In this document: one piece after another, positions 34,805 to 37,989 of the stretch
Layout: the number at the start of each line of letters is the position of its first letter
Position numbering within the stretch: position 1 is the first letter of the stretch
Assembly: GCA_022760475.1 (NCBI GenBank)
Contig: JALEFZ010000020.1
Coordinates: forward strand, 186,001 to 250,000
Length of the DNA stretch: 64,000 bases
Direction: 5' to 3'
DNA from: Bacteroidia bacterium
GTDB taxonomy: Bacteria > Bacteroidota > Bacteroidia > J057
The notes under the pieces: generated by a model
The model's database searches: none
What the model was told of the DNA's origin: nothing
The model's input: only the letters and a program-made list of their open reading frames with translations
Program-made: the position numbers and the translations under genes

Positions 34805-34812
34805 TATATTTG
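34805..34812 (+). promoter_or_regulatory. Bacteroidota -7 promoter element for the metal-related locus
   Basis: TATATTTG matches TAnnTTTG exactly and lies 13 bp before the ATG at 34826. If used, the leader is about 6-8 nt, and a GTG at 34817 would fall at or before the transcription start, which supports the ATG as start. Confidence 0.5.
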
Positions 34813-34825
34813 TTTTGTGAAACAG

Positions 34826-35197
34826 ATGATTATCATTTTCTGGCTATTTGTATATCTGATCCCTTCAAATGGATACAGTATACAACTCCATTATTGTATG
34901 GGGAGCTTGAAATCAATTGATTTGTTTCCGACTGAGCAAAGTGATTGTGGTGGCTGTTCTTCCAAGTGGAAATGTTGTGATTTCACACACATATCGGGAA
35001 GACTAAGTACTGAACATCAAGCCAGTACGACTTTATCTATCAAAGCGCCATTGGAGACAATGGTACCTGTAGAAGCCGTAAAGGAGACATCCTACACCCT
35101 TCACAAAAACAGGCCCCAATACTTTATTCGAAGGAAGGCTCCCCCATCTAAAATCCCCGCCTTCCTGTTGAACTCCTCCTTTATTTTTTATGGATGA
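34826..35197 (+). CDS. HYC_CC_PP-type exported cysteine protein
   Basis: A 123-residue protein with a signal-like hydrophobic N-terminus (FWLFVYLIPSNG) followed by IQLHYCMGSLKSI, then CGGCSSKWKCCDF and, near the C-terminus, RRKAPPSK. This HYC, CC, PP pattern defines a small Bacteroidota family that usually sits beside heavy-metal and TonB-receptor genes. The clustered cysteines suggest metal (copper-like) or disulfide chemistry outside the cytosol. It is the first gene of an apparent three-gene unit with an HMA protein and a TonB-dependent receptor. Confidence 0.8.
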   Translation: MIIIFWLFVYLIPSNGYSIQLHYCMGSLKSIDLFPTEQSDCGGCSSKWKCCDFTHISGRLSTEHQASTTLSIKAPLETMVPVEAVKETSYTLHKNRPQYFIRRKAPPSKIPAFLLNSSFIFYG

Positions 35198-35252
35198 TTA
35201 AAGGCAAATTCCTACGTCTTTTTTCTTTTTTCAATCATTCATAAAAATTACA

Positions 35253-35603
35253 ATGAAATCATATACATTTCTTTTTATCGCCTTTTTCTCCTTTTTCCTA
35301 TCGGGTCAAGCATTCGCCCAGAAAAAAACTGTTGAAGACAAATTTTGGGCGGCAGGAGTTTGTGGCATGTGCCAAAATCGCATTGAGACTGCACTGGATA
35401 TACCCGGAGTAAAATTTGCCACCTGGGACAAGGAAACTCAAATAGTTACAGTAATCTACCGTGAGGATAAAGTGTCTCTGAAGCAATTGCAGGACAAAGT
35501 CAGCTCAGTTGGGCATCAGACAAAGGAGATTCCGAAAAATGAAAAAGCTTACGCAGATTTACCCAAATGCTGTCAGTATGATAGTGGTGCCAAAAAGCAC
35601 TAG
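35253..35603 (+). CDS. Exported heavy-metal-associated (HMA) domain protein
   Basis: A 116-residue protein with signal peptide (FLFIAFFSFFLSGQAFA) and one HMA (ferredoxin-like) fold. The metal-binding loop reads AAGVCGMCQNRIETAL, with CGMC in place of the usual CxxC, followed by PGVKFATWDKE and a C-terminal CC in LPKCCQYDS. Such periplasmic chaperone-like proteins bind Cu(I) or similar soft metals. It lies between the HYC_CC_PP protein and the TonB receptor. Confidence 0.88.
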   Translation: MKSYTFLFIAFFSFFLSGQAFAQKKTVEDKFWAAGVCGMCQNRIETALDIPGVKFATWDKETQIVTVIYREDKVSLKQLQDKVSSVGHQTKEIPKNEKAYADLPKCCQYDSGAKKH

Positions 35604-35742
35604 CATTTCCTATTCCATTTAACATTCAAATATCTAACAAAGAATCATCCTATCCTCGACAAGGGGTATGGCTTTGGGCAATCCTTTCTGAAAATTTCAG
35701 GGATACGCTTGCTTTGTTGGACATGAACTCAACGGTGTAAAA

Positions 35743-37989
35743 ATGCAGATAAAAATAATTCTAGCCCTATTGTTAGGGCTAGGGCTCCAGTATACATTTG
35801 GGCAAAACCTTATTTCTCTAAGTGGCAGAATTTCGGGTATCACCAATGAAAGTGAGCAGACCATTTCAGGCCTCAACGGGGCGAGTATTCTTGCTATGCC
35901 AGGAAAAAGTGGTGCCATTAGCAATGAAAAAGGAAAATTTTCCTTCAAGGCCCCAGACTTCGCCCAATACCTGATTGTGTCCTATCCAGGTTATCAAACA
36001 GATAGCCTTGCCATTAATGGCATGCGAGAATTTGAAATCCTCCTAAAAAAGGACTTTGCCGCTGACTCCGTCATCATCGAAGCCAATAATTCAGGCTCCT
36101 CTATTGATCCATTTAAAACTCAACTGAGCGAAGTCTTGAATCAAAAGGAGCTTCTAAAAGCAGCCTGCTGTAACCTGGGTGAGAGCTTTGAAACCAACGC
36201 CTCTGTCGACGTACAGTTTGATGATGCCCTGACAGGAAGCAAACAAATCCAATTGCTGGGATTGGCAGGGCCTTATTCGCAGATCAGTATTGAATCCATG
36301 CCCGGCATCAGGGGAATTGCCAGTCGAATCGGACTAGACCTCATCCCTGGCCCCTGGATCTCAAGTATTCAAATATCAAGGGGAGCAGGATCCGTGGTAA
36401 ATGGCTACGAAGGATTTGTAGGTCAGATCAATGTGGAGTGGGAAAAACCTCAGACGGGCAAAAAGCTATTTGTTAATGGCTATGGAAACCTATTAGGAAG
36501 GTCTGAGCTTAATGTTAATAGTTCCCAAATGATTAACAACAAAATAGGAACAACTTTTTTGCTTCATGGCAACCTCCGACCTTCTCAAATAGATCGTAAC
36601 GGAGATAATTTCCTTGATGTCCCGCGATCACGGCAAATAAACCTTGCCAACAGGTGGTATTTCAGCAATGAAAGAAATCTTCAGGCTCAGTTGGGTTTGC
36701 AAATCGTGGAAGACCAAAAAGAAATAGGACAAATCACTGGTCCCATCCAAGGGGCATTCAATACATCACAAAGGAGGTATTGGATGAAAGTTGGATGGGT
36801 AAATCCCCAAAGAGCTGGGGAGAGTCTGGGTTTTCAGGCACTATACCTTGACCATAGGCAGGAAAATCAAATGAGTGGACTCCCCTCATGGGAAGGTGGC
36901 TTCAATGCCAGACAGCAGTCCTCATATGCCAACCTCATTTATCAAAATTACATCTTCAATCCCAATCATAGGATCAGGCTGGGAGGAAATCTGCAATTTG
37001 ATCAGATAGAGGAATTTGTCCCACAGATATCAACCCAGTTCTCTTTTAATGAATGGGTACCGGGGATTTTTGGAGAATATACCTATCGCTACAAAGAATC
37101 CCTCCGAATAATTGCCGGCCTGAGGGGAGATTTCCATAATATTTGGGGCTTTTTCCTGACTCCAAGGCTACATTTTCTCTACAAACCCGACCAGAAAACC
37201 AGCATCAGGATTTCGGGAGGGCGAGGACAACGGACTGCCAATGTTTTCGCTGAAAACCTGAGTAGATTGATCAGCCAGCGGGAGTTGAGGACTCAGAATG
37301 ATAGCCGTTATACCGGCCTGGCTTACAACTTTTCTCCAGAAGTGGGCTGGAACATGGGGTTCAATCTCAGCCGGGACCTGAAGATCAATTATCGCCCAAT
37401 GCAAGTAAGGGCCGAATACTTCCTTACAATTTTTAGCCAATTGAACGTAGTGGACATGGAAAATCCCAGATTCCTGGATATCTATCCCCTTGAGGGAGAG
37501 GCCGTAGCCCATAGCCTACTCACAGAGGTTAAATTGGAACTACACAGACGCCTTGAAATCAAGGGCGCATATAAATTCCAAAGAAATATCATCGACTATA
37601 AAAGTGGAAGTCTGGATCGCCCATTTCTCCCCAGGCACCGGGCTTATCTCAATGGTTCTTTCAGCAGCAGAAGCAAATGGACATTTGACTTTACTGGCCA
37701 ATTTATAGGAAGTCAGCGCATTCCATTTACGGACAGCAATCCTGTAGAATTTCAACTGGCCAGTTCAAGTCCAGCCTACTTTATGCTTCATGCTCAAATC
37801 AGCAAAACAATTGGCAAAAAGTGGTTCGTCTACCTGGGGGGAGATAACCTCCTGAATTTCAGGCAAAGTTATCCGATCCTCGATCCCAATGGAGACTTTA
37901 GCTTCTTTGATGCAAGTCTTGTATGGGGACCCATAGTAGGAAGAATGGTATACGCAGGCTTCAGATTCAGCATTGACCAGAAAGAATAA
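35743..37989 (+). CDS. TonB-dependent outer membrane receptor
   Basis: A 748-residue receptor with signal peptide (ALLLGLGLQYTFG), a carboxypeptidase-like N-terminal beta domain (about 25-105) that is shortened relative to SusC proteins, a plug (about 125-235) with SKQIQLLGLAGPYSQISIES and SIQISRGAGSVVNGYEGFVG, and a beta-barrel ending in GRMVYAGFRFSIDQKE-like strand. The plug start contains KAACCNLGESFETN; this CC feature marks receptors of the same locus type that carry HMA partners. Substrate is probably a metal or metal-chelate, with copper the first guess. It uses TonB/ExbBD from elsewhere in the genome. Confidence 0.9.
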   Translation: MQIKIILALLLGLGLQYTFGQNLISLSGRISGITNESEQTISGLNGASILAMPGKSGAISNEKGKFSFKAPDFAQYLIVSYPGYQTDSLAINGMREFEILLKKDFAADSVIIEANNSGSSIDPFKTQLSEVLNQKELLKAACCNLGESFETNASVDVQFDDALTGSKQIQLLGLAGPYSQISIESMPGIRGIASRIGLDLIPGPWISSIQISRGAGSVVNGYEGFVGQINVEWEKPQTGKKLFVNGYGNLLGRSELNVNSSQMINNKIGTTFLLHGNLRPSQIDRNGDNFLDVPRSRQINLANRWYFSNERNLQAQLGLQIVEDQKEIGQITGPIQGAFNTSQRRYWMKVGWVNPQRAGESLGFQALYLDHRQENQMSGLPSWEGGFNARQQSSYANLIYQNYIFNPNHRIRLGGNLQFDQIEEFVPQISTQFSFNEWVPGIFGEYTYRYKESLRIIAGLRGDFHNIWGFFLTPRLHFLYKPDQKTSIRISGGRGQRTANVFAENLSRLISQRELRTQNDSRYTGLAYNFSPEVGWNMGFNLSRDLKINYRPMQVRAEYFLTIFSQLNVVDMENPRFLDIYPLEGEAVAHSLLTEVKLELHRRLEIKGAYKFQRNIIDYKSGSLDRPFLPRHRAYLNGSFSSRSKWTFDFTGQFIGSQRIPFTDSNPVEFQLASSSPAYFMLHAQISKTIGKKWFVYLGGDNLLNFRQSYPILDPNGDFSFFDASLVWGPIVGRMVYAGFRFSIDQKE

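Follow-up and report, generated by a model that had tools for sequence, protein, structure and literature searches.

How copper crosses the outer membrane is not well understood. The described systems closest to the locus treated here are operons controlled by small exported open reading frames (ORFs). In Bordetella, CruR is an exported DUF2946 leader ORF, as shown by experiment; it senses copper through a CXXC motif, has RAPP as its C-terminal arrest motif and regulates the TonB copper transporter gene that follows (PMC9426467). Arrest at RAPP has been confirmed (PMC12992588). The CrtA family has no conserved cysteine, has an invariant histidine and occurs mainly in beta- and gamma-proteobacteria (PMC12914433). 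CutF of Rhodobacter, likewise known from experiments, is a nascent exported copper sensor that opens a stem-loop hiding the next start codon (PMC9973294). According to the same source, CutF and CruR differ in the sign of their response, one leader type acting in either direction, and CutF-like proteins are reported for Bacteroidota as well (40% after normalisation), where they precede efflux and TonB genes. A recent survey found the copper genes of Bacteroidota to be without RAPP/RGPP leader ORFs (PMC12992588). Here, we describe a locus in a stretch of 64,000 nucleotides (nt) from a Bacteroidia bacterium (assembly GCA_022760475.1, contig JALEFZ010000020.1, positions 186,001 to 250,000 of the forward strand), referred to as the window and numbered from its first letter. 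The locus encodes a HYC_CC_PP-type protein (HYC), an exported HMA protein and a TonB-dependent receptor. It is fairly probable, in our judgement, that these genes specify a leader-controlled copper receptor with a periplasmic chaperone and not a relay of three proteins.

The three ORFs lie in tandem on the + strand and are separated by gaps of 55 nt (HYC to HMA) and 139 nt (HMA to receptor). Cysteine pairs are found in all three products, as KWKCCDF in HYC, CGMC and LPKCCQY in the HMA protein and KAACCNLGE in the receptor. The Bacteroidota -7 box TATATTTG (34805–34812, + strand) is the sole such box immediately ahead of any gene of the operon and has no clear TTG at -33. An earlier note on this DNA had pointed out three same-strand genes with cysteine pairs behind a -7 box, and the ORFs, motifs and box bear this out. 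The HYC ORF (34817–35197, + strand) has 126 codons when counted from the GTG at 34817. An in-frame ATG at 34826 is the likelier start to judge from the sequence, because the box predicts a transcription start at about 34817–34819, coinciding with the GTG.

The genome sample consisted of 395 Bacteroidota genomes and was searched with the window receptor as the query; the Cys motif was not used. Matches were obtained in 114 of the 395 genomes, with the clade present in about a quarter of those sampled, and 117 receptor loci were analysed with about 6 kb of flank each. Clade receptors (n = 105) have about 25–43% identity and outgroup receptors (n = 13) about 24%. Partners were searched for with profiles built from these loci, which were run against every ORF on either side of the receptor, whichever strand it lay on. 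A second receptor set, mostly of closer relatives, was analysed independently for partners. An alignment-based scan of contigs gave 80 loci, partly through an ACC-containing pattern, and these were excluded from the evidence on conservation of the cysteine pair; a scan of genome contigs with the window receptor as a single protein gave no match.

The receptor (35743–37989, + strand; 748 residues) matches PF00593 and has an N-terminal CarboxypepD_reg-like domain (PF13715); its match to the plug domain is weak and below the cut-off. The AlphaFold2 model, with a mean predicted local distance difference test (pLDDT) score of 85, has the fold of a TonB-dependent transporter, and a Foldseek structure search agrees. 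Plug, 22-strand barrel and TonB box could all be assigned, the last of these by eye as the TonB-box-like DSVII (residues 108–112; 36064–36078, + strand) between the CarboxypepD_reg-like domain and the plug. The only two cysteines of the protein are Cys142 and Cys143 (36166–36171, + strand), which are flanked by two short plug helices in the model and follow DSVII by about 30 residues. By homology the pair would lie on the plug's periplasmic edge; this region of the model has a pLDDT of 52–63, which makes its exact exposure imprecise. Both cysteines are present in 105 of 105 clade receptors, where the motif resembles KAACCNLSESFETN; the 13 outgroup receptors all lack them. On the sequence evidence the pair is a genuine signal and not chance, because all 105 clade members, found without the motif, carry it. 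No receptor in the second set is without the pair (one case flagged by a pattern reads APCC), and receptors that lack it while keeping the neighbours were searched for in both sets and the outgroup and were not found. The paralogous receptor in the window genome (L154) has neither the pair nor a metal partner. Five loci (L106, L107, L108, L109 and L110) form a divergent subclade with the plug motif ACCDLxGCF, which includes a third cysteine; in L108 and L110 the adjoining HMA-like protein is without CxxC. A perfect 9-bp hairpin lies at 35761–35782, within the signal-peptide codons of the window receptor and 18 nt past its start codon.

According to the structure search, the window receptor has the same fold as OprC of Pseudomonas, a copper TonB-dependent receptor (PMC8610252); an OprC-like receptor is described for Bizionia (PMC11213822). 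OprC binds copper at an extracellular CxxxM-HxM site, whereas the window receptor has Cys142 and Cys143 only, followed by NLG, and no CxxxM. It also differs from CrtA, the logo of which is without a conserved cysteine. The XusA and SusC/RagA receptors of Bacteroidota share the CarboxypepD_reg-like domain, plug and barrel, but have neither CC nor an HMA or HYC partner. In a literature search, neither HYC_CC_PP nor the plug motif was named in any of the papers found, and no experimentally shown copper receptor of Bacteroidota came to light.

Within 6 kb of the 105 clade receptors, both HYC and HMA were found at 66 loci, HYC only at 20, HMA only at 14 and neither at five; at least one partner is therefore present at 100 of the 105, and neither is present at any of the 13 outgroup loci. 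The co-occurrence of the three families and the conservation of the plug pair, both of which the earlier note had put forward for checking, thus held. The window HMA protein (35253–35603, + strand; 116 residues) matches PF00403 (E value 3.1e-8; 34.3 bits against a cut-off of 24.8) and has the MxCxxC-type loop of an HMA metallochaperone, GVCGMC, with CGMC at residues 37–40 and a second pair at residues 106–107. CxxC is present in 66 of 68 stand-alone homologues; the second pair (CCx[YF]) is less conserved, in 54 of the 68 and in 12 of 12 fused copies. The HMA gene is upstream of the receptor gene in 28 cases, downstream in 40 and fused to the receptor N-terminus in 12 (44, 49 and 25, respectively, in the second set), and in some genomes two tandem HMA domains are fused. 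These data are strong sequence evidence that the HMA protein is the partner of the receptor and acts at the plug, because the fusions are N-terminal and this end of such receptors is periplasmic; the structure model of a fused HMA-receptor protein is weak between the domains. Gaps between the HMA and receptor genes are mostly 5–40 nt among relatives. The gap of 139 nt in the window (35604–35742) folds well (z score -2.9), and this predicted fold may serve as a further regulatory element ahead of the receptor gene.

HYC behaves differently from the HMA protein. The window HYC scores 22.1 bits against NF047658 (HYC_CC_PP), below the cut-off of 28, yet over the full length; all 21 aligned relatives match this family (best E value 1.6e-45), for which the library gives a name and no function, and no Pfam family fits them. 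The features of the family, HxC after the signal peptide, CC and a C-terminal PP, are found in the window protein at residues 25–27 (34889–34897, + strand), 53–54 (34973–34978, + strand) and 109–110 (35141–35146, + strand), in the numbering from GTG. Mean column identity in the alignment of relatives is only about 24%. A signal-peptide-like start, His25, Cys27, Cys44, Cys53, Cys54 and the C-terminal part with PP are kept; Cys27, Cys53 and Cys54 are invariant and His25 is nearly so, and the H-Y-C residues are likely metal ligands. The Pro-Pro pair, 16 residues from the C-terminus in the window, is a candidate slow-translation site and lies within the last 25 residues in 66 of 86 receptor-linked HYC proteins and in 33 of 38 others. 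In these 38 the last residue is Ile (33/38), the penultimate Leu or Arg (38/38) and the third-last Phe or Tyr (35/38).

The gene for HYC is upstream of the receptor on the same strand at 86 of 86 loci in the first set, never downstream and never fused; 93 of 94 hits in the second set are likewise upstream on the same strand, and one is upstream on the opposite strand. The median distance from HYC to the following gene is 73 nt. A TAnnTTTG box occurs within 90 nt before HYC at 44 of 86 loci (5.9 expected from shuffles), and is not enriched before HMA (2/70, 3.6 expected) or before the receptor (3/105, 5.8 expected). HYC thus has what is looked for in a leader ORF: it is first in the operon, upstream of metal genes and followed on the same strand after a short gap.

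The earlier note had read the vicinal cysteines as a relay, in which HYC, HMA protein and plug would all be stable envelope proteins that hand on Cu(I). Conserved CC or CxxC in all three products, their predicted export, the shared operon and the conserved cysteine and histidine that HYC has besides CC would all suit such a relay. Gene fusions make its step between HMA protein and plug probably right. The step through HYC is probably wrong: HYC invariably comes first and, unlike HMA, is never fused or relocated, it has low conservation (24%) outside its Cys/His residues, PP and C-terminal end, it also heads CusA operons, and a stem couples its stop codon to the next start codon. Position, promoter, stem and efflux partners are much better explained by a cis-acting leader ORF, and a relay through all three proteins is in our view unlikely.

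The stem was examined with other tandem genes from the same loci, with gaps in the same size range, as controls (n = 110) and with dinucleotide shuffles. The predicted fold brings the region of the HYC stop codon into pairing with the start codon that follows; in the median, the 5' arm begins 6.5 nt before the stop codon ends, and the 3' arm ends at +2. At least eight closing pairs are predicted at 62 of 68 receptor loci and at 28 of 34 other HYC loci, compared with 44 of 110 controls; the mean numbers of closing pairs are 17.0, 14.8 and 6.8, respectively (5.4, 4.5 and 5.4 after shuffling). A perfect helix of at least nine pairs occurs at 40 of 68 receptor loci, 16 of 34 other HYC loci and 13 of 110 controls (about 8% of shuffles). 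When receptors were grouped at 55% identity, the mean fraction with a stem was 0.88, against 0.38 for controls. Covariation among 17 related loci was observed in five of 13 pairs, with 11 cells altered on both sides; at most four cells were obtained when the arms were slid, and none of 500 shuffles attained 11. In the window, the 5' arm (35185–35199, + strand) spans the HYC stop codon and forms 15 pairs with the 3' arm (35233–35247, + strand), which ends 5 nt ahead of the HMA start codon (ATG); the minimum free energy and centroid folds both contain this stem (z score -2.6). The prediction therefore includes an mRNA fold that would mask the downstream start, as in leader ORFs. Rfam gave no family above threshold.

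A simpler role for this arrangement would be translational coupling or protection of the mRNA by HYC and the stem, the metal site of HYC being non-regulatory. A stem that draws stop and start codons together could aid re-initiation, and PP is not universal in HYC; near-invariant His and Cys residues in an otherwise fast-evolving exported ORF, and the restriction of HYC to metal operons, would be left unexplained. We regard coupling or protection alone as improbable.

By analogy, we infer that HYC works like the CutF and CruR leaders, although we do not file it as one of them, because it shares their position, export signal, metal-ligand residues, C-terminal PP and stem. The CruR-CrtA/BfrG operon of Bordetella pertussis (PMC9426467, PMC12914433) resembles the HYC locus in that a small exported Cys-containing ORF heads a TonB copper transporter operon, and CruR, like HYC, has a C-terminal Pro-Pro. 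The partner in the CruR locus is PepSY_TM and here it is HMA; a Rho terminator has been demonstrated for CruR, whereas a stop-to-start stem is predicted for HYC. HYC as a DUF2946 homologue was ruled out: PF11162 was not among the hits of the aligned relatives, and no HYC-position hit to it was obtained in eight genomes. RAPP and RGPP were found in none of the receptor-linked or other HYC proteins, in which NAPP and YSPP are the commonest forms. CutF (PMC9973294) is likewise a nascent exported copper-sensing leader with a C-terminal Pro-rich motif and a stem-loop over the downstream start; HYC would share the sensing. CutF regulates the multicopper oxidase CutO, whereas HYC heads receptor or efflux operons, and the HYC stem differs from that of CutF in starting at the stop codon, with PP 12–16 codons earlier. 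HYC proteins may be among the CutF-like proteins reported for Bacteroidota in the same source; the name HYC_CC_PP was not found in its available text.

The HYC family is present in 118 of 395 genomes and is often distant from the receptor. At the non-receptor loci sampled, the next gene mostly encodes a CusA/CzcA heavy-metal resistance–nodulation–division pump, and TolC-like and CusB-like genes come after it. Other genes after HYC are usually HMA or heavy-metal-binding-domain genes, and the gap is usually 30–190 nt; among the few exceptions are a protein sorted by the type IX secretion system (L168) and an AraC-type regulator, which follows one of the HYC genes at L160. The window genome itself has a HYC paralogue (L155; G000:C73:47592-47978) upstream of a CusA-type efflux gene, and a 537-residue ORF without a family match is called between the two. 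Among the 19 receptor loci without a HYC hit, ten have an upstream exported Cys-rich ORF ending in WQPPxxx and four more have a Cys-rich ORF ending in LRI or NLI. The stem recurs at the short-gap loci of this kind that were inspected (e.g. L062, L069 and L210). HH-align of these look-alike leaders to HYC gave a probability of 93 over the first 50 columns only, so a common origin is possible from the sequences. Cys-rich leader-like ORFs ending in WQPP[KRQ]xx were seen at L062, L065, L069, L073, L074, L076, L077, L078, L108, L110, L210 and L295; they precede CC receptors that are mostly without HYC and often have one or two fused HMA domains.

The genomic company bears on the metal. CopA-like ATPase genes adjoin a few receptor loci, and because of CusA and CopA, copper, as Cu(I), is our best guess from the genes present; the soft metal suggested by the earlier note fits the same company. 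Another soft metal or a metal chelate (silver, mercury, zinc or a peptide chalkophore) would make copper incidental. HMA domains also bind mercury and zinc, and the CusA and CzcA families are inseparable by the score used; CxxC in the HMA protein, vicinal cysteines and CopA neighbours favour Cu(I), and no recurrent mer or zinc genes were found in the neighbour clusters of receptor loci. We give such a cargo only a small chance.

The preferred explanation can be set out as follows. The locus would be one operon for an outer-membrane receptor of a soft metal, most likely copper, which the receptor would import. Its plug bears the cysteine pair, probably at the periplasmic N-terminal edge, and the secreted HMA-type chaperone would dock on the periplasmic side and swap Cu(I) with the plug. 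HYC would be a cis-acting leader ORF, the nascent exported chain of which bears a His/Cys site that would bind the metal. Passage of the ribosome, which may pause, over Pro-Pro and the conserved last HYC residues would set open or closed the stem that reaches from the HYC stop codon to just ahead of the next start codon. Of its elements, the conservation, operon position, promoter position, predicted stem, fusions and genomic partners were observed in the sequences.

Several points weigh against it. HYC could be a stable periplasmic protein. The stems are predicted by thermodynamic folding of AT-rich RNA, and about one in four receptor-linked HYC proteins lacks PP. The distance from the end of PP to the 5' arm of the stem, about 36 nt, is also too great for a ribosome stalled at PP to reach; on this geometry, stalling at PP was judged unlikely to open the stem directly, and a ribosome positioned at the stop codon or close to it, rather than at PP, may do so. 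Three genomes (G238, G347 and G351) have a CC receptor without a COX1-type (haem-copper) oxidase, and copper supply to the oxidase is therefore not the only purpose of the receptor; this oxidase is present in 372 of 395 genomes, too common to separate receptor carriers. The same leader also heads efflux and receptor operons, which should answer copper oppositely. Because receptor and pump should respond in opposite ways, it would follow either that the sign of the response differs between HYC subtypes or that the receptor is not a starvation-induced importer.

The second of these leads to a copper-induced receptor, which with HMA would serve signalling or the handling of copper stress and not uptake in starvation. 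The shared leader architecture before efflux operons, the CopA-like ATPases beside a few receptor loci, the receptor genomes without haem-copper oxidase and the N-terminal periplasmic HMA fusion, which resembles the position of a signalling domain, all suit this alternative. No recurrent sigma/anti-sigma pair was found in the neighbour clusters, TonB-dependent receptors are importers by default, and CutF and CruR show one leader type with either sign (PMC9973294). Signalling or stress handling is accordingly rated as rather unlikely, and we retain the leader-controlled receptor with its chaperone.

The system is real and widespread. A wider proposal, which we hold tentatively and at somewhat less than even chances, is that HYC_CC_PP and the WQPPxxx look-alikes are a Bacteroidota-wide class of copper-sensing leaders without RAPP, controlling receptors and CusA efflux through a stop-to-start stem, and that the receptors are a new copper TonB clade that hands metal to HMA through the plug cysteine pair. 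The invariant pair and its HMA partner amount to a specific, testable metal hand-off. If the proposal is true, HYC_CC_PP would fill, with another sequence, the Bacteroidota gap in copper leader ORFs and would give an unassigned family a function. The use of one leader design before receptor and efflux genes raises the question of how a single switch could yield opposite responses, or else whether copper in fact induces the receptor.

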